A DNA stretch of 43,694 nucleotides from a virus: positions 1 through 43,694 of the IMG/VR virus record IMGVR_UViG_3300022750_000004; one strand, written 5' to 3'. Numbering within the stretch: the stretch's first letter is position 1; each line of letters opens with the position of its first letter. A program made the position numbers and the translations under genes. The notes below the pieces were generated by a model. The model was not told where the DNA came from. It saw only the letters and a program-made list of their open reading frames with translations, and did not search any database. Of the stretch, positions 3,942 through 43,694 are shown one piece after another.

Positions 3942-3977
3942 TTGACATAGTGATTATGTTTCGTGGATAGTACCACC
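3942..3977 (+). promoter_or_regulatory. Early promoter with operator-like element, copy 1
   Basis: TTGACATAGTGATTATGT at 3942-3959 has a consensus -35 (TTGACA) and, 18 bases on, GATAGT as a possible -10. The ATA...TAT half-sites form the interrupted palindrome shared with four other sites. It drives the genes from 4009 and overlaps the upstream end of the divergent regulator gene. Confidence 0.7.
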
Positions 3978-4475: not shown

Positions 4476-4502
4476 TTCGATATCTTGATATAATTGTTAT
4501 CT
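4465..4502 (+). promoter_or_regulatory. Early promoter with operator-like element, copy 2
   Basis: TTGATATAATTGTTATCT at 4485-4502 is the second copy of the shared element and its best inverted repeat (ATAA-TTG-TTAT). Here a perfect TATAAT -10 (4489-4494) is embedded in it, with GCGACA 18 bases upstream as a weak -35. It precedes the Nmad5-like/ParB/helicase operon. Confidence 0.65.
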
Positions 4503-4522: not shown

Positions 4523-5110
4523 ATGACCCGGATTACTACAGCGCTGAAAGATGCTGTCATCAAGAATGCAGTGGCGAAGTCAGGCGTAACCGCCGAGCTT
4601 GAAGCGATCAAAGCAAAGCGATTTGCGTGGGCTGAGCGCGTGCGGATTCAAGTTGTCGGCGGACCAAAAAAGGCTGCCGAATACGCCAAGATCAACGCCG
4701 AAGCGGCGACCGCATATGGTGCGTTGCCTACGGAAATGAAAGATCACTCCAACATTGTCGAGCGGCGCTCATCGTTCTACGTAAACCTTGCGGGGGTTTC
4801 GGTTACCGTGAAATTGAACGGCTATAGCGAGACCCCGAATAATCGCATATCTATCACGGCCGCCAGCCCTCTCTGCCAGGAATTCTACGATATCGAGACT
4901 GAAGAGAAGGCAGCGATTGAGCGCGGGACCGTTATCGAAAATCAAGTGCGCGCCACGCTGGACAAGTTCGGCACCGTCAAGCGCCTGACCGAGGCATGGC
5001 CGGAAGTCGTCGAGCTGCTGCCGCCAATGACTGTCTCGGCGAAATCGAATCTGCCGGCTATCCAGGTTGCCGACCTCAACAAACTCGTCGGCCTTCCAAG
5101 CGATAAATAA
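4523..5110 (+). CDS. Nmad5-like protein, possibly linked to DNA modification (195 aa)
   Basis: The start follows GACAGGAG by 7 bases. The protein (MTRITTALKDAVIKNAVAKS, ... ERVRIQVVGG, ... SPLCQEFYDIETEEKAA, ... FGTVKRLTEAWPEVVELLPP) has the layout I associate with 'nucleotide modification associated domain 5' proteins of phages and bacteria: a helical N-terminus starting MTRLT..LRDAI..NAL, a central beta region and a conserved 'TVK.L...WPE..ELLP' near the end. The family name rests on gene neighbourhood and no enzymatic activity is established for it. It heads the operon and is followed by a ParB-like gene. The assignment is from memory of the pattern. Confidence 0.5.
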   Translation: MTRITTALKDAVIKNAVAKSGVTAELEAIKAKRFAWAERVRIQVVGGPKKAAEYAKINAEAATAYGALPTEMKDHSNIVERRSSFYVNLAGVSVTVKLNGYSETPNNRISITAASPLCQEFYDIETEEKAAIERGTVIENQVRATLDKFGTVKRLTEAWPEVVELLPPMTVSAKSNLPAIQVADLNKLVGLPSDK

Positions 5111-5135
5111 TTCATATCTGACAGGAGCTTCACCA

Positions 5136-6044
5136 ATGGCTTTCACTTTGAACAACATCGCATCCGACAAGAACAACGAAGCAGCCAAGCGCGGCGACGC
5201 AATCCGCGCGCTGCTCAGCAAGATCAAGATCGTCAACGGCTTCAACGAGCGTGATTTTCAGCGCGAAGACGTGCGCCTGCATATCGCCTCCATTGTCGCG
5301 GCACTCATTGCCGGCGAGCCGATTCCTGCGCTAGTGGTCTGGACCAATCCAGAGACTGGCGATATCGAGCTGGTCGATGGCGAATGCCGTTACTGGGCCT
5401 ATACCGACTTCGCCGGATCTTACCCGGATCGCTTCGATGGCTACGTCAGTGTCGTTCCTTTTCAGGGCACTCCGGCGCAACGCAAGGCCTTGGTGGCTAA
5501 GAGCAACAGCCAGCTTCCGCTTGATCCTGTTCAGCGTGGCCGCGTCTATCTGTCTCTGCGTGATGAGCATGGCATGAGCCGGCAGGACATTGCGGTCGAG
5601 ATGAATAAGTCGCTGGCGCATGTTGATCAGATGATTCTGCTGGCTGGCGGCAGTCGCGAGATGCATGAGGCCGTTGAGCGCAAAGAGATCAGCGCCACCG
5701 AGGCCACCAAGCTGATTCGAGATCACGGTGTTGATGCTCCTGCCGAGCTTGAGCGACGCAAAGAGGCTGCCAAGGAGATTGGCAAGGGCAAGGTAACTGC
5801 GAAGGTTGCGGCGCCGAAAGCACCGAGTCGCCCGAAAGTTGATATGGTGGTTTCGAATGCTGTTGTGCTGGTGAATGGTCTGAACGGCGCCATTCTTATG
5901 GCTTGCGAGCAGGCCGAGGATTCTCTTGTACCAGTCAGTGCTCACGCCCTTGCAGACCTCATCATGGCCGTTCGCGAAATGCAGCAGGCTGGCAAGGCGG
6001 TGGATGCTGACAAGCAGGTTGTGCTTTTCGAAGGGGAAGAATAA
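5136..6044 (+). CDS. ParB-like nuclease/DNA-binding domain protein (302 aa)
   Basis: GACAGGAG at 5120 sets the start at 5136. The N-terminal domain has ParB/sulfiredoxin-fold features: GFNERDFQ at 36-42 and ELVDGECRYWAY at 78-89, equivalent to ParB's 'dGerR..A' box. Residues about 148-175 form an HTH (MSRQDIAVEMNKSLAHVDQM). The C-terminal part is a Lys/Ala-rich linker followed by a small helical domain. No ParA gene is present, so a partition role is not supported. Phage ParB-like proteins may be nucleases, CTP-dependent DNA binders or regulators. It lies between the Nmad5-like gene and the helicase. Confidence 0.75.
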   Translation: MAFTLNNIASDKNNEAAKRGDAIRALLSKIKIVNGFNERDFQREDVRLHIASIVAALIAGEPIPALVVWTNPETGDIELVDGECRYWAYTDFAGSYPDRFDGYVSVVPFQGTPAQRKALVAKSNSQLPLDPVQRGRVYLSLRDEHGMSRQDIAVEMNKSLAHVDQMILLAGGSREMHEAVERKEISATEATKLIRDHGVDAPAELERRKEAAKEIGKGKVTAKVAAPKAPSRPKVDMVVSNAVVLVNGLNGAILMACEQAEDSLVPVSAHALADLIMAVREMQQAGKAVDADKQVVLFEGEE

Positions 6045-6400: not shown

Positions 6401-8442
6401 TGGCCCTCCACCTACTGGAACACCAGCTCCCCTCAACCGCCGCCATGCAAAAGCACTTCCGCAGCCGCGAGACGGTGAAGTGGGGCGACCGTGACATTCA
6501 TCCGCCAATCGTCTGCAACGCCTCGGTATCCAGCGGCAAATCGATCATGATCGCCGCTCTGGCAATGGCAGTTCGAAAGGCTGCCATCAACGCTGCAAAG
6601 CCTCGCTCTGTCTTCGTGCTGGTCATCCAGCGCCAAGGCGAGCTGTGCATGCAGAATTCGGAAGCGGCCTGGGCATTCAACGATGAATCCAAGCTGCTCA
6701 ATAACTCCCTGTTCTCGGCCAGTTGCGGAAAGGTCAAGTCGACTCATTTCCAAGTTGTATACGCCACCGAGGGCACACTTTCACGCGCTCTAGGCTTTGG
6801 CGTAAAAGCCAAGGATGGTGAAGAACCTGAAGCGCCAAAACCTCAATACCGGTTCTCGCCATACACTTCTGAAGAACTCGCTAAGACGCCAGAGCAGCGA
6901 GCGCTGCTGAAAAAGTTCCACCCTGATTTGATCATGTGGGATGAATGCCATCAGATCCCATACGACAATCCAGACAGCATGGCGGTCAAGATTCTCAATC
7001 ATTTCTACGACTGCAAACCGGCCATGCGTTTTGCCGGATTCAGCGGGTCATGCTTTCGCGGCACCGAATCGATTGTCGGAGATACGCCGCAGCACCTTTG
7101 GAAGAAGTTCGCCAGCATCGCGCAGGACGATCCGGATTACCCGGAAGGCGGCGTAGGCGACGGGATCATCACGACAGAATTCATGATCGAGCAAGGTTGG
7201 GTTGTGCCGCCGACGTTCGGCTATCCAGATGACACGGATAAGCAATACGACTTCAGCCATCTCAACCCCAACGGCTGGGAGTATGACGAAGCCGAGATGG
7301 ATGCCGTTGTAAGCGATCACCAGAAGCTGCTGGCGGTCTGCTCTGACGTGATCGAGAAGGCTGCAAGCCGCAAGGGCGTCCTGATCTTTGCGGCAACTCA
7401 GCGTCACGCTAGGCAGATTGCTGCCGCCATGAAGGATCTCGGCGTTGATCCCGACACAATTGGCGTCATTACCGAGAAGACCAAGGACAAGGATCGGCGC
7501 CGGATTCTGGATCAGGCGAAAACAGGCGTCATCAAGTACACGATCAACGTGGCCGTGCTGACAACGGGGGTCAATGTACCCTGGTGGGACACACTGGTAT
7601 TCATGCGGCCAATCGGATCGCTGGTTCTTCTCATCCAAGCTATCGGTCGAGTGCTGCGCCTGCTGATCCTTGACGGCGAAGTTCCGATGTTTGAGCGCTC
7701 CAACCTGTTCGGCTTGACCGCGGCTGATCGCCTTGAGCTGATCGCGGCCAGCAGCAAGCCAGATGCGCTGGTGATGGATTACGCTGACGTGATGAACACG
7801 CTCGGGCACCTCTACGACAACCAGATCCTCGAGCAAGCCGAGCTGGAGAAGGCGAAGAAAGAGAAAAAGGATCTGATCGAATGTCCGAAATGCATGGCCG
7901 ACCTGGGCATTCAGACCATGAACAGTCCTTCGGCGCGGCGCTGCATATATCGCGACAGCAAAGGCGAGCGCTGTGAACACTTCTGGCACTTCCGACTATG
8001 CCCTGGTTGCATGACACAAAACGACCAAGTTGCCCGCGAGTGCCGGTCTTGCCGACGCATGCTGATCGATCCGAATGCCGTGCTGAACAATAAGAGTTAT
8101 TCCGATGGGGAGTCGATTCCGGTTCGATCCATGAAAGCCGGTCACGGATCTGGGGGGAAACTCTGGTTCCGCTATGAACTATCGACCGGCGACACACCGA
8201 TGGAGATCTTCTATCCGCATGCCGGTGAGAACAAGAAGGTCAACAACATCATCTGGGGCAAGTTCGTTGATGCGTTGCCGATTGATCAGCGCTCGCGTTT
8301 GCGGCTTAGGGCGATGAAGGCGGAAACCGTGATGGAGAATATTGATTTGATTCCGGTTCCGGCCGAATTATCGGCGAGGAAGAAGGGGTCGCGCTGGACA
8401 ATCGGAAGACGTCGCTATCAGGAACAGGAGGTTGCGCTTTGA
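6400..8442 (+). CDS. DEAD/DEAH-type superfamily 2 helicase with C-terminal zinc fingers (680 aa)
   Basis: Superfamily 2 motifs are visible in order: Walker A ASVSSGKS (41-48), DECH box (181-184), motif III-like FSGS (214-217), LIFAATQRHARQ (328-339), TTGVNVP (388-394) and motif VI QAIGRVLR (413-420). After about residue 490 come Cys pairs C495/C498 with C515/C525, and C534/C537 with C548/C551, consistent with two zinc knuckles. The last 100 residues form an extra domain. Such proteins are common in phage replication modules that have a VRR-NUC nuclease, as here, where the nuclease start overlaps the helicase stop. It probably unwinds or remodels DNA at forks or the origin. Confidence 0.9.
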   Translation: MALHLLEHQLPSTAAMQKHFRSRETVKWGDRDIHPPIVCNASVSSGKSIMIAALAMAVRKAAINAAKPRSVFVLVIQRQGELCMQNSEAAWAFNDESKLLNNSLFSASCGKVKSTHFQVVYATEGTLSRALGFGVKAKDGEEPEAPKPQYRFSPYTSEELAKTPEQRALLKKFHPDLIMWDECHQIPYDNPDSMAVKILNHFYDCKPAMRFAGFSGSCFRGTESIVGDTPQHLWKKFASIAQDDPDYPEGGVGDGIITTEFMIEQGWVVPPTFGYPDDTDKQYDFSHLNPNGWEYDEAEMDAVVSDHQKLLAVCSDVIEKAASRKGVLIFAATQRHARQIAAAMKDLGVDPDTIGVITEKTKDKDRRRILDQAKTGVIKYTINVAVLTTGVNVPWWDTLVFMRPIGSLVLLIQAIGRVLRLLILDGEVPMFERSNLFGLTAADRLELIAASSKPDALVMDYADVMNTLGHLYDNQILEQAELEKAKKEKKDLIECPKCMADLGIQTMNSPSARRCIYRDSKGERCEHFWHFRLCPGCMTQNDQVARECRSCRRMLIDPNAVLNNKSYSDGESIPVRSMKAGHGSGGKLWFRYELSTGDTPMEIFYPHAGENKKVNNIIWGKFVDALPIDQRSRLRLRAMKAETVMENIDLIPVPAELSARKKGSRWTIGRRRYQEQEVAL

Positions 8443-8831: not shown

Positions 8832-8860
8832 TTGACATAGTTATTATCTTGAGCCACTAT
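8832..8860 (+). promoter_or_regulatory. Early promoter with operator-like element, copy 3
   Basis: TTGACA (8832-8837), a 17-base spacer and CACTAT (8855-8860). The element TTGACATAGTTATTATCT (8832-8849) is identical to copy 4 at 41522. It starts the recombination operon at 8900. Confidence 0.8.
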
Positions 8861-16217: not shown

Positions 16218-16823
16218 TCAGGAGACGTTTGTGATAAGGCCGGAGATCACGGTGACGGTTCGGCTGTCTCCAGTTGCGAAGGTTCCAGTCCATCCAGGGG
16301 TTCCGGCGACTGAGTAGGTCGTCGAGTCGGTATTGCCTATGACGATCATGCTGCCGGTCAGCGTGTAGTTGCCAGCGTGAACCCAGTTACCCGTTACCGT
16401 GGAGTCGCCCTTGCGCTCAATGGTGGCCGGGATGAGTTTTGCCGCTGATGCCGGAGCTATGCCGACCAGGGCAAAGCAGTCACTGTAATCGTGCATACGC
16501 TGCTCGATTGGCGGCACGTTGTCGGCGCCGTCGTACCAGCGATCAAATGAGCGCTCGCTGACCAGTAGCAGGCAGTAGTCGCCAGCGGTGATTGGGTGCG
16601 CGTCATAGTTCTCGCCGCCGCTCATGAAGATTGGCGGCACGCTCGGGAAGACCGGGAGGTCTATTGCCTCACCGTCGACAACGCGCTGAATGACTGGTTG
16701 CACGTCAATAGTGGTAGTGCCGACGGTTACGACCTTCGCCACGACAATCGTGTGGGTGTTCGCCAGAGCGGTCATCACGCTGTCATTGAGTACGTCCGTC
16801 AGCTCTTGTTTTTCCTGGGTCAT
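16218..16823 (-). CDS. Baseplate spike with Gp138 N-terminal-like domain (201 aa)
   Basis: The start at 16823 is set by the ATGA overlap with the hub stop. Residues 1-110 (VLNDSVMTALANTHTIVVAK, TTIDVQPVIQRV, YDAHPITAGDYCLLLVSERS, DRWYDG) are the OB-fold 'Gp138 N-terminal' domain of membrane-piercing spikes such as phi92 gp138. The C-terminal 80 residues are repetitive Thr/Gly-rich beta sequence (VTGNWVHAGNYTLTGSMIVI), suiting a trimeric beta-helix needle. Confidence 0.85.
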   Translation of the reverse strand: MTQEKQELTDVLNDSVMTALANTHTIVVAKVVTVGTTTIDVQPVIQRVVDGEAIDLPVFPSVPPIFMSGGENYDAHPITAGDYCLLLVSERSFDRWYDGADNVPPIEQRMHDYSDCFALVGIAPASAAKLIPATIERKGDSTVTGNWVHAGNYTLTGSMIVIGNTDSTTYSVAGTPGWTGTFATGDSRTVTVISGLITNVS

Positions 16824-17695
16824 TTCGGCACCACGTAATTTGGGGCGATCTCGGCGGTGATTTTTTGGTCCCACGATGATCCATCATAATCGCCGCTGTA
16901 GCTGATCATGCTGACCTTGTAGACCCCGTTTAGGTGCGGCGATACCGTCGATATGAGCTGTAGCAGGCCGCCGACCTTGATCGATGGGTTGAGCCAGGTA
17001 GTCATGGTGACAACCTTCTTGTCGGAGTCAACGACCTTCAGGCCAGTCTCGGCACTGACGACAGGTGTGTACCCCGACACAACCTCATCGCTGCCCAGGA
17101 TGTTCAGTCGCTCGTCGTCGATGAACCAGCGCTGATCAGGGTCGAGCATGTCCTGAATCGTCGCCATGGAGTTGCCGACAAGGATCTTCGGGCGGGTGAT
17201 ATCCTTTTGCGCGCCGATCTTACCCTTCTTGGTGTTAGGCATGGTGCCAAGCACAGCGTCGATTGCGGCCGTCTTGCTGGTCACTGAAGTGCTGATGAAG
17301 CCCTTGAGGAAGTCATGGCCGCCATCCAGGCAGTTCAGAGTGGTGACGAACTGGGCGCCCTCCCTGACTGATCCGCCCTCGTCTACCGACCCGCGAAAAA
17401 TGGTCTCGACTCGCCCCTGATAGCCGATCTTCAGCTCAATGGGGAAATAACCACTATTAGAAGGCGCGGTTGACTTGTTCCCGTCCTTATCCTTGGTTTC
17501 CTTTTCGTCTGCATCGCGGACAAGGCGCCGCCGCTTGTCCTCGTTCAGTCCGTCAATCTTCAAAGTCATCTTGTTCAGATCGGCCTTGTCGGTTTTGTCA
17601 GCGCTGAAGACGATTCGAAACGGCGGGCGGACTTCGACCGCCTGCGCGCCCAGGCCAATGGTTAGGATGTAGTCGCGCAGGAAGCGGTTGGTCAT
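16820..17695 (-). CDS. Baseplate hub protein (gp44/gp27-like, 291 aa)
   Basis: The N-terminal half (RIVFSADKTDKADLNKMTLK, IELKIGYQGRVETIFRGSVD) and the 'TLNCLDGG' and 'KVVTMTTWLNPSIKVGGLLQ' segments match the phage hub family of four related domains that binds tube and spike. It is directly followed by the Gp138-type spike, as expected. The length is typical. The start at 17695 follows the stop of the 185-aa gene by a few bases. Confidence 0.8.
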   Translation of the reverse strand: MTNRFLRDYILTIGLGAQAVEVRPPFRIVFSADKTDKADLNKMTLKIDGLNEDKRRRLVRDADEKETKDKDGNKSTAPSNSGYFPIELKIGYQGRVETIFRGSVDEGGSVREGAQFVTTLNCLDGGHDFLKGFISTSVTSKTAAIDAVLGTMPNTKKGKIGAQKDITRPKILVGNSMATIQDMLDPDQRWFIDDERLNILGSDEVVSGYTPVVSAETGLKVVDSDKKVVTMTTWLNPSIKVGGLLQLISTVSPHLNGVYKVSMISYSGDYDGSSWDQKITAEIAPNYVVPK

Positions 17696-17698
17696 GGG

Positions 17699-18256
17699 CT
17701 AGGAGTCCTTTTGTTTGCGGTAGCCGTGATTATAAAGCGTTTCGAAAATGTGAGTGGTTCCAGAACTTCCGCCGCCGAACAGGTACTGCATCTCCTTGAT
17801 TGCCTTTGCCTTCTCTTCCGCCGCGATCTGCTCGGGCGTGCGGATTGGGCGGAACTTTGCTGTACTAGGATGACAAAGGAACTCTTGCTTGATGCCTCCC
17901 TTGTCTTCTATCCGGCGAGCAACAACGGTCACGTTGCTGATGTACATGACTTCGACCGGCTCAAAGAATTTAGGTCCTTCATGCTGAGTCGACATGAAGT
18001 CGCATACGGTGCCAATTGGCGGTAACCCTCCTCCAGCCCATGATTTAGATTTAATTGAAGCCTCATAGACCTCTTCGGCGACTGCGCTTACCCTTCCGAT
18101 CTCAGTTCCTGTCCAGTGGCGCGATACTCCGGAAAGGCAGAATGACTTCTTCCCAATCTTGATAATCTCTTTCGCCTTAAAGGAGGCATCAAGAGCCGAA
18201 AGAATCGCCTCACCAAACGAGGTTATTTCTAAGCGGGATGGTTCAGGAATGGTCAT
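17699..18256 (-). CDS. Unknown protein inserted in the baseplate cluster (185 aa)
   Basis: The ATGA start overlaps the PH-domain gene stop. The sequence begins with a patch around KAKEIIKIGKKSFCLSGVSR, has a central stretch VEVMYISNVTVVARRIEDKG followed by Cys/His, and ends with RTPEQIAAEEKAKAIKEMQY, a charged helix that I associate with hypothetical proteins of Pseudomonas phages. It does not look like a baseplate part. With the PH-domain gene it may form an accessory pair between the tailspike and the hub. Confidence 0.7.
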   Translation of the reverse strand: MTIPEPSRLEITSFGEAILSALDASFKAKEIIKIGKKSFCLSGVSRHWTGTEIGRVSAVAEEVYEASIKSKSWAGGGLPPIGTVCDFMSTQHEGPKFFEPVEVMYISNVTVVARRIEDKGGIKQEFLCHPSTAKFRPIRTPEQIAAEEKAKAIKEMQYLFGGGSSGTTHIFETLYNHGYRKQKDS

Positions 18257-18759
18257 GCTGCACCGCCTTGATTGATGCCGGCAGCGAACACGGCTGGATC
18301 GACATTGAATTCTTTGATGCCAGAAACGCGCACTTCAAGCTGCTGACGATACTCGCAAGCATCATCCACCAGCCGGCGGAACACCAGCGGATCTTTAACC
18401 CCCTTCATCACTGCATCATTCCCCCCGCTACCCGAGATGATCACGTCGCCATAGCCGAAGATGCGCCCCAGGAATCCCTGCTTGACCGACACTGATTCAA
18501 CCTTGCTCAGCCGGATCTCACTGGTATCGCGCATGATCACGCCCGACTTGCGAATGACACGCTTGCTGGTGACACCCATCTCGGTCGAACGGATCTTCAG
18601 GTAGGCGTACAGCAGCAGCGCGGCGCTGATCGGCAGGCAGATGATCGACACGCCGAATATCACGGCGGCGCAGTAGATGTGGAAGAGCGACCACTTGGAG
18701 ATTTTCCCCTCTGCTAGGAGGGTTTCGTCTTTGGCTAGCGTATCGGTGATGTATGTCAT
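18253..18759 (-). CDS. Membrane protein with bacterial PH domain (168 aa)
   Basis: The start is the ATG at 18759, preceded by GACAGGGGA. An upstream in-frame ATG at 18807 is possible but would overlap the promoter. Residues about 22-52 form two close membrane helices (SLFHIYCAAVIFGVSIICL, ISAALLLYAYLKI). Residues 56-130 are a bPH_2 domain of the YdbS/YdbT type (EMGVTSKRVIRKSGVIMRDT, IRLSKVESVSVKQGFLGRIF, GYGDVIISGSGG). The C-terminus is short and unique. Such proteins are usual in bacteria, not phage particles. It has its own early-type promoter inside the late operon, so it is best read as a moron, perhaps affecting the host envelope or superinfection. Confidence 0.85.
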   Translation of the reverse strand: MTYITDTLAKDETLLAEGKISKWSLFHIYCAAVIFGVSIICLPISAALLLYAYLKIRSTEMGVTSKRVIRKSGVIMRDTSEIRLSKVESVSVKQGFLGRIFGYGDVIISGSGGNDAVMKGVKDPLVFRRLVDDACEYRQQLEVRVSGIKEFNVDPAVFAAGINQGGAA

Positions 18760-18797
18760 CTCGGTTCCCCTGTCATTGCGCCTCATTGCGCCCTTGA

Positions 18798-18826
18798 ATA
18801 ATCGCAAGAGATAACGATTATGTCAA
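18798..18826 (-). promoter_or_regulatory. Promoter with operator-like element, copy 5, before the PH-domain gene
   Basis: On the minus strand TTGACA (18826-18821), a 17-base spacer and GATTAT (18803-18798) form a good sigma-70 promoter. The element TTGACATAATCGTTATCT (18826-18809) has the perfect ATAA-TCG-TTAT palindrome and the same layout as the early promoters. Confidence 0.8.
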
Positions 18827-19047
18827 GGGGCGGTATCTGCGCCCAGCTTTGCGCGAGGATCATCAGCAGCATAGAAGCCTCCATCGAAGCCGACTATCAC
18901 CTCCTCATCAGCCTCGGTAGCTCCGGGCGGCAATGGATTGGTTGCTACCGACACCTCTTCGCCGTCGCCGCCCAATTCAAGCACGTAGACGTAATCCCAT
19001 TCGCCGATGTTGATCGGCTTGCCATCCATATCACGAATCACTTTCAT
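18823..19047 (-). CDS. Small protein following the tailspike (74 aa)
   Basis: The ATG at 19047 overlaps the tailspike stop (ATGA). The protein (MKVIRDMDGKPINIGEWDYV, EVSVATNPLPPGATEADEEV) is acidic and resembles the short proteins often found directly after fibre and tailspike genes in Pseudomonas phages. A chaperone or attachment role is possible by position. It ends inside the -35 of the next promoter. Confidence 0.75.
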   Translation of the reverse strand: MKVIRDMDGKPINIGEWDYVYVLELGGDGEEVSVATNPLPPGATEADEEVIVGFDGGFYAADDPRAKLGADTAP

Positions 19048-21119
19048 ATCAGTACCCAGCCGGTATTTCCGGACCCTGTCAGTTTTTGATAGTTGCCGCC
19101 GCCGCTGGTAGTTTGCAGCCAGAGCGAACCAGGTGGCGCAGTGATTAAGCCCTCGGGACTGCCGGCACCTCCGCGAATTATAGGGCCTGCATTGCCAACC
19201 CTGAGCTGCGTTGCTCTCCATTGGATTTCATCAACTGTAGCCCCGGTCCTTGTCACCAGCTCGTAGTTGGTTCCCACTCCTGCATCAGTAGCAACCTGCC
19301 GGTTGAACGAGTTTGACCCGAGCGCGAATCTCCAGATGCGGTTGTCTGCCACTGCGTTTGACCGAGTCAAAGACATTGCAGCGGAACCGCTGGTTTGAAA
19401 GTCGAATGCCTGGTTCATCATCTGGATCGGGTTGGGCAGTGTAGCCGCATCCTTGACAAGGATATTCCCTGAAAAAGAAGACACTACCGAATAGTTACCG
19501 ATATGAGTGTTTCTGGTGTTATTAATGAAATGGAACAGGTTGGCGGCAGGGCCGGACTGGAATGACTCTGTATTACTGATAACAATTTGAGAGCAGTTAT
19601 CAAGAAGTATCCCGTCATCACAAGTGGTGCCGACAAGAACGCCGTCTATTAGGACTCCACCACATGTATTAAGATACATGTTGTATTGATTCCCAAGAAA
19701 AGCTCCGTCCACTTCGGACGGCTCAGCTTCAAATTTAGAAATCCAGGTTGAGTTACAATTGTCAAGCTTGAGTCCATACCAGTCATAGGTGGCGCTTTTC
19801 CATCCGAATCGATGCCTGCGGACAATAACAGTATCAATACGCCGACCACCAATATCAAAGAAGTAGACTCCGAAATGTTGTGAGTTAATGTTCCCATTAG
19901 ACAGGACGCACTCGTTAAAGGCTCCGGCCTCTATCTGATAGACTCCATCAAAGGAGTGCGAAATGTCAAAGTTAGTGATTTGCCAGAAAGAACCCTTGCC
20001 AATCTCAATTCCGCGATAAGCATTAGTAATTGTGAGTTTTGACAATTGCGCGGTTAGCAATGTGAAAGCCGCACGCAATCTAATCCCGCAAGATTGAACC
20101 TGAAGGTCTGGGTCGGTATCACTTCTATAGTTGCCGAAGAATTGATAGCTTGTAATATCACAGCCAATCCCGTCTCCAGTCTCGATACCGCACAGCCACG
20201 TTTCGACAGTCTCAAAGGCGTTCTGCGTGCCAGGCGGTGGTAGCGTGTAACCGGCAATGTAAAGATTGTCGAAAATGTACGCGCTTCTACGAGTGGCGTA
20301 CTGTATTGAATTCTGCGGGGCAACGAATGCTCGACCGGCGTTAGTCCCTCTCGCAAGTAAAGTTAGGTGTATCGCCCCCGAAAGGGTCTGCTGGATCTGC
20401 GGGTTGAAGACAAATCCGTCTGCTCCAGCCATGTTGTCGAATACGAGCACAGAGTCACGACCATCCCCGCTGATCACCCCGGAGTTCTTACTTAGCGTTG
20501 AGGTTAGTACGTAGACGCCGCCAGGGATCTTGATGTCTGCCTGGGGATGCGCCAAGAAGCAAGCCTGGAATGCAGCGGTATCATCCGTTACTCCATCCCC
20601 GATAGCCCCAAAGTCTTTTACAGACACAACATCCCGAAGCTTTCCCTGAACTGTGCGCGGGACCGACCCTGCTCCCTGCCCCACCGAGCCTACTAGGCTT
20701 GATCCGCTAGGAGCTAAAAGATCATTCCGCAAAGTCTGATCATTCCGCAAAATCAAATTAGGAGCGTCAGTCGCAAATATCCCAGTCAAAACAAACGGAA
20801 AGGCATTCGGCACCTTTACGCTGTAGATGTTGCCTGCGCGCTCGATGGTCTGAGTTGAGCGATCAACCTGGAGCGGGACGCCATCAACATAGACCAGCGG
20901 AGGATACTCAAAACCTGACGCCGCCAAGAACTGCTGAAACTCGACATTGCGAGCCGCCTCGGCAGAGTCATAGGCGGCGTTGATACCGGCGAAGGTCCGC
21001 ACAACCTTCGTGGTACGGGTTACCGTCGTCAGCTCATCACCGTTGACTACGATGTCTTCGGTCTTGGTGTTCGCCAGAAGGTCAGCGACCTCCTCGGATG
21101 GAACTGGAGTAAATGTCAT
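19044..21119 (-). CDS. Tailspike with pectate-lyase-type beta-helix, likely depolymerase (691 aa)
   Basis: The N-terminal 130 residues (FQQFLAASGFEYPPLVYVDG, QTIERAGNIYSVKVPNAFPF) form a particle-binding domain. At about residue 165 comes VKDFGAIGDGVTDDTAAFQA, the signature that opens right-handed beta-helix tailspikes, followed by PGGVYVLTSTLSKNSGVISG and many short beta turns to about residue 570. The C-terminal domain (about 575-691) includes WRATQLRVGN and ends with WVLI, the type used in trimerisation. Such spikes bind and often cut capsule or O-antigen. The active residues cannot be named by eye. The middle has a visibly lower GC content than its neighbours (about 35-48% in sampled 60-base lines), a sign of exchange. 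Confidence 0.88.
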   Translation of the reverse strand: MTFTPVPSEEVADLLANTKTEDIVVNGDELTTVTRTTKVVRTFAGINAAYDSAEAARNVEFQQFLAASGFEYPPLVYVDGVPLQVDRSTQTIERAGNIYSVKVPNAFPFVLTGIFATDAPNLILRNDQTLRNDLLAPSGSSLVGSVGQGAGSVPRTVQGKLRDVVSVKDFGAIGDGVTDDTAAFQACFLAHPQADIKIPGGVYVLTSTLSKNSGVISGDGRDSVLVFDNMAGADGFVFNPQIQQTLSGAIHLTLLARGTNAGRAFVAPQNSIQYATRRSAYIFDNLYIAGYTLPPPGTQNAFETVETWLCGIETGDGIGCDITSYQFFGNYRSDTDPDLQVQSCGIRLRAAFTLLTAQLSKLTITNAYRGIEIGKGSFWQITNFDISHSFDGVYQIEAGAFNECVLSNGNINSQHFGVYFFDIGGRRIDTVIVRRHRFGWKSATYDWYGLKLDNCNSTWISKFEAEPSEVDGAFLGNQYNMYLNTCGGVLIDGVLVGTTCDDGILLDNCSQIVISNTESFQSGPAANLFHFINNTRNTHIGNYSVVSSFSGNILVKDAATLPNPIQMMNQAFDFQTSGSAAMSLTRSNAVADNRIWRFALGSNSFNRQVATDAGVGTNYELVTRTGATVDEIQWRATQLRVGNAGPIIRGGAGSPEGLITAPPGSLWLQTTSGGGNYQKLTGSGNTGWVLI

Positions 21120-21562
21120 GGTCGCTCCACGTTGGTGGCGATATCGAATAGGCCCCGATTCAAGAAGAAGTCAGGCGCGATTATCCACTCAGGGAAAATG
21201 TATGGGATTGCCTGAGACTGGAACGGGAACAGTTGCCCCGCTCTATCAGCCTCGATCTCTTCCCTTGATGCAAAGTAAAGCTCGCATCTTCCGTCGCTAA
21301 AATCGCCCAGCCTGAATGGTGCCATCCCACTGCTGTCGGTAGTTACGCAGAAGAAATCAAATGGCCAGTTCAGCGACCGGATATGCAGGCACCCCAGGCT
21401 TATCATGAAGCCATTGTAACGCACCTCGCGCCACGATACATCGAACGACCACATCTGAGTCACTTCGTAGAAGTTGAGGATCAGGGTGATCTCTTCGTCG
21501 CCCGATAGCAGTATGTGGCGCTGGCTTGGCTCGTCGGTGATATTGGTTATCTGAAATGCCAT
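21116..21562 (-). CDS. Baseplate plug protein, Pam3 gp18-like (DUF6983, 148 aa)
   Basis: The sequence EITLILNFYEVTQMWSFDVS followed by SLGCLHIRSLNWPFDFFCVT and then GRCELYFASREE fits the short beta-rich family with 'l.l.y....w.fdi....g.....Gi.l'. These lie between the Dit-like and hub genes and are named after the plug of cyanophage Pam3's baseplate. Position agrees, except that the tailspike and three other genes separate it from the hub here. Confidence 0.65.
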   Translation of the reverse strand: MAFQITNITDEPSQRHILLSGDEEITLILNFYEVTQMWSFDVSWREVRYNGFMISLGCLHIRSLNWPFDFFCVTTDSSGMAPFRLGDFSDGRCELYFASREEIEADRAGQLFPFQSQAIPYIFPEWIIAPDFFLNRGLFDIATNVERP

Positions 21563-26533: not shown

Positions 26534-27178
26534 ATGCCAAAACTAATTAAAGACCTTGGGTTAATCCATACAGGATCAAAGCGGGTCCATTTTGCAATCT
26601 ACTCATGCCCTCAATGCCTGATTGAGTTTACCACCAGATGCCGCAAGGATCTCTCCTGCGACGCGGGCATATGCAGGCGCTGCGCTAGCATCAATAATGC
26701 CACAAAACATGGCCATTCCTCGAACAGTCTTTACTCTATCTACAAAGGAATGGTAGTGCGCTGCGAGAGCCTTGACAGAAAGGACTCCGAATACTATTCG
26801 GCAAAAGGAATATCTGTCTGTCGAGACTGGATCACATCTTTCGAGGCCTTCTCCGTCTGGGCCGCCTCTTCGGGGTACAGGACAGGCCTTAGTATTGAGC
26901 GATTGAGCAATGACAAAGGGTACGAACCTGAGAATTGCTGCTGGATTCCGAAAACCAAGCAGTCGATTAATCGCGGAGTATTTTCCAACAACACCAGCGG
27001 ATTCAAAGGCGTGAGCCTCATGCCGAAACATGGCAAATTCAAGGCGTACATCGGAGTCAACAAGAAGGTGATTTATCTTGGACTGCATGCCACGGCAGAG
27101 ATTGCCGCCGCCGCCTATGACGACTACGTCATTGCGAATGGCCTGGCTCATCCGCTTAACCTTCCCCTACGCCAGTAG
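26534..27178 (+). CDS. HNH-type homing endonuclease with AP2 DNA-binding domain (214 aa)
   Basis: This plus-strand gene interrupts the minus-strand late operon between the neck and sheath genes. It has an N-terminal CPQC...CRRC knuckle, a central HNH/His-Me region (IYKGMVVRCESLDRKD, GISVCRDWITSFEAFSVWAA, SIERLSNDKGYEPENCCWIP, KQSINR) and a C-terminal AP2-like domain (NNTSGFKGVSLMPKHGKFKA, KVIYLGLHATAEIAAAAYDD). That is the plan of free-standing phage homing endonucleases. GGGAG precedes the ATG. The sequence is richer in AT than its neighbours. It ends 5 bases from the convergent neck gene. Confidence 0.9.
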   Translation: MPKLIKDLGLIHTGSKRVHFAIYSCPQCLIEFTTRCRKDLSCDAGICRRCASINNATKHGHSSNSLYSIYKGMVVRCESLDRKDSEYYSAKGISVCRDWITSFEAFSVWAASSGYRTGLSIERLSNDKGYEPENCCWIPKTKQSINRGVFSNNTSGFKGVSLMPKHGKFKAYIGVNKKVIYLGLHATAEIAAAAYDDYVIANGLAHPLNLPLRQ

Positions 27179-41205: not shown

Positions 41206-41525
41206 AAATCTTCGACCTCTCCTTCACCGACGGCAAATCCTGCCGAGTAATCGACCCGGACCCAGAAGGCAACGCCGAGGAATCCCTGCGAGGCTACCAG
41301 TCGATGTTTCAGCCTGGGTATCTGGTCGGCCTGGTTCAGGTTATTGCGCCGCCTCCTGATAGGCTGCCGTGGAGGCGCGACGGTGAATTCTGGAGGATTG
41401 GCGCTTTCGTCCTGGTCAGGCTGGATGGCGGGGGATTCAAATGCTTCTGGCCTGGCGGCGATGTCACTGGTGACAAGGATGCCATATCCGATGCCGTCCG
41501 CGAGAATTGGCACCTTCACGCTTGA
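41202..41525 (+). CDS. Small phage protein of unknown function (107 aa)
   Basis: The start at 41202 is set by overlap with the 57-aa gene; in-frame ATGs upstream lie inside that gene. The protein (KIFDLSFTDGKSCRVIDPDP, SMFQPGYLVGLVQVIAPPPD, GGFKCFWPGGDVTGDKDAIS) looks like a compact beta-rich domain. It ends in the -35 of promoter copy 4. No family recognised. Confidence 0.75.
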   Translation: MKIFDLSFTDGKSCRVIDPDPEGNAEESLRGYQSMFQPGYLVGLVQVIAPPPDRLPWRRDGEFWRIGAFVLVRLDGGGFKCFWPGGDVTGDKDAISDAVRENWHLHA

Positions 41526-41550
41526 CATAGTTATTATCTCGGCATAGTAT
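41522..41550 (+). promoter_or_regulatory. Early promoter with operator-like element, copy 4
   Basis: TTGACA (41522-41527), a 17-base spacer and TAGTAT (41545-41550). The 18-bp element is identical to copy 3. It opens the small-gene operon that crosses the contig junction and ends at the terminator at 2314. Confidence 0.8.
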
Positions 41551-42057: not shown

Positions 42058-42152
42058 TTCGGTTGGTCGCGCTTATCACCGCATTAATCCTGATCGCCGC
42101 GCACGTCACGGCGGCGGTCATCGCTCTCTACGTTGAAGGGGTTTTGAAATGA
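42054..42152 (+). CDS. Single-pass membrane micro-protein (32 aa)
   Basis: It starts with GTG in a GTGA overlap and ends in an ATGA overlap. Nearly the whole peptide (IRLVALITALILIAAHVTAA, VIALYVEGVLK) is one membrane helix. Phage peptides of this type often act on the host envelope, but nothing specific is known here. Confidence 0.65.
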   Translation: MIRLVALITALILIAAHVTAAVIALYVEGVLK

Positions 42153-42466
42153 GTAAGCACACCGCAGGGAAATGGAAAGTTGTTGAGAATGGTGGCCGCA
42201 TGGTCGGGGTAATGAGTGGCCGCGCCTGGGTGGTTTACAAGTCGGGCAATGACTGCATGCTGACTGAAGAGCTTGAGTCAAATGCCCTTCTGATCGCCGC
42301 AGCACCGGATCTGCTTGAGGCCCTTGAGCAAACGCGCAACGAGTTGCAGCGACTTATGCCGATGATGCAGGCAGATGAATCAGGCCTCGGTCCTGACTGC
42401 ACTTCTTACTTCCAAGCGATTTTTAACGCTGGCGCCGCGATCGCCAAGGCAACAGGTGAAGCATGA
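42149..42466 (+). CDS. Gp63-like small phage protein (105 aa)
   Basis: SKHTAGKWKVVENGGRMVGV at the start and ESNALLIAAAPDLLEALEQT in the middle belong to a very common phage family ('HT.gpW.v.......AnArLIaAAPelLeAL'). The function is unknown. It overlaps its neighbours by ATGA. Confidence 0.85.
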   Translation: MSKHTAGKWKVVENGGRMVGVMSGRAWVVYKSGNDCMLTEELESNALLIAAAPDLLEALEQTRNELQRLMPMMQADESGLGPDCTSYFQAIFNAGAAIAKATGEA

Positions 42467-43279: not shown

Positions 43280-43694
43280 ATGAGTGAAGTGAAGCGATAT
43301 CTGATCAACTGGCATATGGAAGAAGAGTTCGAACATCCTCAAGGCAGATTCGTCATGGCATCAGACTTTGATGCAGAGCGAAAGGATTGTATTGAGCTAC
43401 GTGACGCCCTGAAGTCGACAATGGATCGCGAAGACGCCGCCCAATCCGAGCTGGCTGCTTTGCGGGAAGAGCTGGCCGAAATAAAGCATAGTCGCGATTA
43501 CTGCAACCGGGTTGCGATCCACAACAAAGAGCTTGGCGACGACCTTCAGCAGCGCCTTGCGGACGCAGAGCGGCGGAATGCGGCAACCGAAGCTAACGCG
43601 AATCGTTATATTGGGATTCGCGACGTCATCCCGCTTGGTGAGCTCTCTGAAATAACAGGAGAACTCCAAACGGGGGCCGAGTGGGATGATGCCA
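43280..43694 (+). CDS. 5' part of the junction-crossing coiled-coil protein
   Basis: AAGGAG precedes the ATG at 43280. The frame (MSEVKRYLINWHMEEEFEHP, FVMASDFDAERKDCIELRDA) is open to the last base and continues at base 1 to the stop at 166-168. The first 138 residues are on this side if the repeated 127 bases are counted here. See the entry at 1-168. Confidence 0.85.
   Translation, partial: MSEVKRYLINWHMEEEFEHPQGRFVMASDFDAERKDCIELRDALKSTMDREDAAQSELAALREELAEIKHSRDYCNRVAIHNKELGDDLQQRLADAERRNAATEANANRYIGIRDVIPLGELSEITGELQTGAEWDDA
43568..43694. repeat. Direct terminal repeat, right copy (127 bp)
   Basis: Identical to 1-127. It should be counted once when the circle is closed, giving a unique length of 43,567 bp. 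Confidence 0.97.

Follow-up and report, generated by a model that had tools for sequence, protein, structure and literature searches.

The late operon of the phage genome analysed here contains a gene for a small membrane protein with a bacterial PH domain (the PH gene), and this gene carries the promoter element of the early genes. The window, i.e., the whole stretch of DNA that was analysed, comprises all 43,694 nucleotides of IMG/VR record IMGVR_UViG_3300022750_000004. Comparison with related genomes gives good support to the PH gene being a moron in a small inserted cassette, and it is probably under early-type regulation. Our overall reading, with a probability of roughly 0.4, is that it is an early-controlled cassette gene whose product serves in superinfection exclusion or as an envelope guard at the inner membrane. 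It would be a moron that belongs by its control to the early regulon of apparently lytic phages while located within the late operon.

The record has a perfect 127-bp direct terminal repeat (1-127 and 43568-43694) and is thus very likely a complete phage genome; the terminal repeats of relatives are 127 or 123 bp. Profile searches identified contractile-tail genes, including those encoding a DUF3383 sheath-type protein, baseplate J and an E217 gp41-like hub. Late genes are on the minus strand and early genes mostly on the plus strand. A gene that runs against the late genes (26534-27178, +) has a weak AP2-domain match and a partial match in only one of seven relatives, and is perhaps a homing-endonuclease-like insertion. 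The sample compared consists of metagenomic contigs. The host is presumably Pseudomonas, as the ParB-like protein is 59% identical to its counterpart in the cultured phage Amjad_SA. No tyrosine integrase was found in the ten records searched for one, suggesting a lytic lifestyle. The PH and hub proteins were not found in bacterial genomes, with search patterns that reach close relatives only, so related prophages may exist. The features discussed below are listed in Table 1.

Table 1. Features of the PH gene locus and of the shared element, in window coordinates.
Feature	Position	Strand	Basis or remark
Operator copy TTGACATAGTGATTAT	3942..3957	+	at early promoter
Operator copy TTGATATAATTGTTAT, TTGATA variant	4485..4500	+	just upstream of Nmad5/ParB/helicase operon
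Operator copy	8832..8847	+	promoter of recombination operon
Operator copy	41522..41537	+	at early promoter
Operator-like element TTGACATAATCGTTAT	18811..18826	-	overlaps -35 hexamer of PH promoter
Sigma70-type promoter TTGACA-17-GATTAT, extended -10 TG	18798..18826	-	sequence; architecture conserved in relatives
Leader element GCGCAATGANGCGC, potential small hairpin	18778..18791	-	between promoter and ribosome site
Ribosome site GACAGGGGA	18766..18774	-	sequence
PH-domain membrane protein CDS	18256..18759	-	168 aa; stop codon 18253-18255
Second cassette gene, phrog_3483-like	17699..18256	-	E 7.1e-31; ATGA overlap with PH gene
Baseplate hub (E217 gp41-like), downstream flank	16820..17695	-	PF22759 E 9.6e-14
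Tailspike-like gene, between phrog_349 gene and cassette	19044..21119	-	PF12708 and phrog tail families
phrog_349 virion/tail gene, upstream flank in relatives	21116..21562	-	E 2.1e-8
Cro/YdaS-like HTH protein, candidate regulator, 145 residues	3493..3927	-	PF15943 E 2.7e-5, below Pfam cut-off

The most likely start of the PH gene is the ATG at 18759, which is kept in relatives; longer readings would begin at an in-frame ATG (18786) or TTG (18807). A prior reading of this DNA from its sequence alone (the sequence-only reading) had described a two-helix membrane protein with a bacterial PH domain, and domain searches bear this out. In detail, residues 57-129 match PF03703 (bPH_2) with an E-value of 2.8e-15 and 56.8 bits, against a curated cut-off of 22, and residues 1-140 match positions 1-138 of the 142 of phrog_3707, a “membrane-flanked domain” of the moron category (E 1.2e-32). 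Residues 20-58 form a single hydrophobic stretch of ~38 residues with a proline break and basic residues around it. Because this one stretch is broken by proline, we predict a helical hairpin, and because basic residues flank the hairpin, both ends of the protein, and hence the PH domain, should lie on the cytoplasmic side. A structure model built from 21 homologues in a more diverse alignment (mean pLDDT 76, pTM 0.52) showed weak but consistent similarity to PH, PTB and FERM-F3 domains in the PDB (Foldseek E-values of at least 0.03; Z 5-6). It replaced a first, poor model based on close relatives alone (mean pLDDT 62, pTM 0.34). Searching solved structures by sequence revealed no relative and only two chance-level pantothenate kinases. 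The dN/dS of the PH gene against seven close relatives is 0.09-0.19, indicating that it is functional and under purifying selection.

Homologues of the PH protein were detected in 280 records of a cultured-phage collection, nearly all of them Ackermannviridae (such as Limestonevirus, Kuttervirus and Miltonvirus), in which the homologue is a core gene (PMC10892097 Table 5). Temperate elements also encode it, between an HTH regulator and an integrase (L145) or directly after a repressor gene (Funu2). Among plasmids, those of group IncP-1gamma encode a bPH_2 hairpin protein in trbW, with which their trb transfer operon ends (7995-8441 in both L148 and L149). L150 (NZ_CP076310, 2213 bp) and similar 2.2-kb enterobacterial miniplasmids have only three annotated genes, one of them for a stand-alone bPH_2 membrane protein. 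The membrane PH family is widespread and linked across phages and plasmids, which makes it a specific candidate for a mechanism of exclusion not described before.

Exclusion is suggested by the fact that unrelated mobile elements carry a membrane PH protein, often where it would be made at establishment. We hypothesize that the PH protein inserts into the inner membrane of the host as a hairpin of helices, leaving its two ends inside the cell, and that it most likely acts on incoming competitors, at or near the DNA entry site, during the lytic cycle. The presence of homologues in lysogeny modules, at the end of the trb operon and in miniplasmids, and the precedent of sie285, are consistent with this proposal, which we regard as tentative. 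The precedent is imperfect, as the Sie285 protein has bPH_3 and SHOCT domains and no clear hairpin, and the need for exclusion is less obvious in phages without an integrase match. In addition, the bacterial relatives are tied to bacteriocin transport or envelope stress, not to phage (PMC8657885, PMC2817789), and PADLOC gave no match. In a broader reading, stand-alone hairpin-PH proteins could form a general exclusion module of mobile elements that acts on incoming DNA at the inner membrane. Its carriers would be lytic phages (with early control), prophages (with a repressor), conjugation operons and minimal plasmids. We consider this broader proposal rather unlikely.

Envelope guarding and counter-defence are close rivals of exclusion. 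The PH protein could be an envelope or membrane-stress protein that is made early and steadies the host inner membrane in the face of ion leak, injection lesions or host antimicrobials, without excluding phages. In Bacillus, the bPH_2 proteins YdbS/YdbT appear with the sigma-W regulon of envelope stress, bacteriocin transport requires DdE/DdF, a YdbS/YdbT-like pair (PMC8657885), and the universal retention of the homologue in Ackermannviridae suits a housekeeping role in infection (PMC10892097 Table 5). However, a need during lytic infection does not explain carriage in lysogeny modules and minimal plasmids, and the two-gene YdbS-YdbT arrangement is absent at the PH locus. We judge this explanation somewhat unlikely.

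The cassette has been exchanged independently of its flanks, given that the dS of the PH gene (0.47-0.69) is about half or less of that of the hub (1.00-1.73) in the same genome pairs, and that the pattern is opposite in L011, where protein similarity is lower for PH (70%) than for the hub (78%). The C-terminal tails of the PH proteins of relatives vary on a conserved core, and the last residues, QGGAA, are mostly kept. The companion genes belong to early-type families, as the Ead-like gene in the cassettes of some relatives resembles window 42149-42460 (+), and a phrog_3483-like gene is located far from the hub in the cassette-less sister phage G011. Horizontal exchange among relatives, the variable tail, the early-type companions and early-type control of the PH gene itself would all suit a counter-defence or host-takeover factor at the membrane, for example one that blocks a membrane-linked anti-phage system or a host process. 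No known anti-defence family was matched, however, and broad spread among plasmids does not single out counter-defence, a role that we consider improbable.

Regarding its expression, the sequence-only reading had given the PH gene its own sigma-70 promoter, an 18-bp element in common with the early operons and an early-like ribosome site. We recovered all three. The promoter hexamers are TTGACA (18826-18821) and GATTAT (18803-18798), separated by 17 nt, though such a promoter alone is no better than chance (four promoter-like sites in the region against 4.2 expected). In the window and in relatives alike, the upstream gene ends within the -35 box, its stop codon overlapping it, though the upstream genes differ. 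The 14-nt leader is kept in the window and in the cassettes of relatives regardless of which gene comes first, and differs by one base in L010. The ribosome site resembles the GACAGGAG of early genes. A search for strong terminators on both sides of the cassette yielded only weak terminator-like sites; thus, late transcripts may read through into the PH gene and early transcripts into the hub.

The 18-bp pattern, with up to three mismatches, had three matches in the window, against 0.01 expected. The pattern TTGACATARTNRTTAT occurred 44 times in nine related records and not once in reversed-pattern controls. Near-complete relatives (n = 7) have five or six copies, once seven, and two shorter fragments have one copy each. 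With one mismatch allowed, the pattern was absent from the cassette-less sister records tested. All near-complete relatives in the clade share the element with their early promoters, and it adjoins a candidate repressor gene; both findings support early-type control. Alternatively, it could be a strong host promoter sequence and no operator, in which case the PH gene would be constitutive and not switched with the early genes; the element, a putative operator, does include the -35 hexamer. Among 34 sites from six genomes, however, the element is constant, with nearly fixed positions beyond the -35 hexamer, while the -10 and its neighbours vary. These sites were chosen with the TTGACATARTNRTTAT pattern, so constancy at the defined positions is partly by construction; the controls gave no matches. 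Moreover, the site at 4485, at the Nmad5 operon, keeps the element without a -10 at 17-nt spacing, pointing to a site bound by a protein more than to a promoter alone, and both the window and the operator-bearing relatives have an HTH gene next to the element. A promoter-only role for the element is therefore quite unlikely.

Amjad_SA has the operator, and the phage collection contains no PH match for it. L010 has the PH gene, with a promoter that includes a different dyad, TTGACATTCCGTCAA, found at one site in the 10.5-kb L010 contig and, among the matches listed in a scan of the collection, at one site per contig. A second early-type operator promoter was detected on the late strand of some relatives (G007:C1:32414 (L028), G001:C1:32396, G005:C1:43764 and G004:C1:10471), ~10.5 kb upstream of the PH promoter where checked. 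In G007 it drives a DNA methylase-like gene and in the others small genes; the window is without it.

The Cro/YdaS-like gene points away from the operator promoter at 3942, to which it is divergent, and its product likely regulates the operator. Each of the eight operator-bearing relatives tested (G001-G007 and G010) has this gene, with a TTGACATAGTGATTAT operator close to its start. Of two sister phages without the operator, G011 lacks the gene and G012 encodes a protein of only 36% identity. The same kind of operator lies between a homologous Cro/YdaS-like gene and a divergent early operon in Amjad_SA, which is a cultured Pseudomonas phage described as lytic (PMC12968170). From this arrangement, we infer that the Cro/YdaS-like protein could be the repressor of the early regulon. 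A ParB-like gene (5067-6044) may be an alternative candidate, as each of the five operator-bearing relatives compared has it and the two operator-less ones do not; unlike the YdaS-like gene, it has no adjoining divergent operator promoter. Another HTH gene (1704-1997) was set aside, as it matches only one of seven relatives compared. Because the PH promoter is of host type and carries the operator of the early regulon, host RNA polymerase should transcribe the PH gene with the early genes, and transcription would begin soon after DNA entry.

The location of the PH gene inside the baseplate cluster, as claimed from the sequence, holds: tail genes lie upstream of it and the baseplate hub downstream. 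It heads a cassette of two genes, the second of which was missing from that account. We compared gene presence and absence at eighty loci of hub relatives, a few of which start too near the hub to tell. In the clade of the window, the order is phrog_349 gene, operator promoter, up to two small early-type genes, PH gene, phrog_3483-like or another small gene, and hub. More distant relatives mostly have the phrog_349 gene directly against the hub, in some cases with an ATGA overlap (L043, L044 and L048), and no PH gene was found at these loci. At this junction, several further lineages carry different cargo, i.e., a tailspike (L042), ParB-like genes (L088 and L097) or unknown genes (L065 and L100). 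Given these empty, cassette-filled and other-cargo states, we infer that the junction is an insertion hotspot. The junction in the window also gained a 132-aa gene and the tailspike-like gene, which has no match at this spot in the loci of relatives; a different spike occurs there in L042.

The sequence-only reading had proposed a moron, and the PH gene indeed lies on extra DNA between genes that are adjacent in related phages and has its own promoter, as predicted from the sequence and conserved in relatives. A deviant base composition is another trait often ascribed to morons, although it is no strict requirement. The GC content at 18-19 kb (0.547) does not differ from that of the genome (0.555), a result that an insertion of long standing or a donor of similar composition would also give. 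The clear empty site, together with the candidate regulator, makes the question of timing directly testable.

A tail-related or assembly protein, for which the position beside the hub would be functional, is very improbable even though the gene is near baseplate genes both here and in Ackermannviridae and a homologue lies among structural genes in a different, unrelated phage (L126), as the junction is a general cargo slot, the promoter is of early type, many relatives make the same baseplate without the PH gene, and the homologue in Kuttervirus Sajous1 (gp59) yielded a single spectrum from purified particles, compared with 924 from the major capsid protein (PMC10892097 Table 6). Such low counts may be contamination (PMC10892097 Table 6), and gp59 is probably expressed but hardly a structural component. 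Nor is the PH gene conserved in all relatives as a virion protein; close relatives conserve it within a cassette of early type, and its product is no known virion protein.

Among known systems, the phrog_3707 proteins of Ackermannviridae (LIMEstone1 ORF020 and Sajous1 gp59) belong to the same family over residues 1-136, with hairpin and bPH_2 domain, and are encoded in the non-structural module beside a dCMP deaminase gene. They differ in being 33-37% identical to the PH protein, in being encoded by a core gene of 150-kb phages, and in being without the variable C-terminal tail. Bacillus YdbS and enterococcal DdE likewise combine two transmembrane helices with one bPH_2 domain (PMC8657885), a YdbS-family trait that the PH protein has. 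However, those proteins are encoded on the chromosome or in a bacteriocin operon with a YdbT-like partner. No such partner was found beside the PH gene, whose neighbours are the phrog_3483-like gene and tail genes, and we therefore do not file the PH protein as YdbS.

The lactococcal gene sie285 (bIL285 orf2) is listed as a superinfection-exclusion gene (PMC6127208), and its product is described as a PHb-domain membrane protein (PMC6127208; Xu et al. PMC2817789). In the text consulted, resistance tests are reported for sie309 and sie312, not for sie285. Like the PH protein, Sie285 is phage-borne, has a bacterial PH domain and is described as a membrane protein. From the published text, the two might be taken to share one architecture, but we rejected this on domain scanning, which revealed a different PH family (PF14470, bPH_3) with SHOCT and no clear transmembrane hairpin; sie285 is also part of the lysogeny module of a temperate phage. 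HK97 gp15 is reportedly a moron-encoded membrane protein with superinfection-exclusion activity. It is unrelated to the PH gene product, is expressed from the prophage and is not known to be under an early lytic operator. The TrbW proteins of the IncP-1gamma plasmids QKH54 and pMBUI1 are, like the PH protein, stand-alone and mobile-element borne, with hairpin and bPH_2 domain and ~40% identity, and differ in that trbW is the last gene of a conjugation operon.
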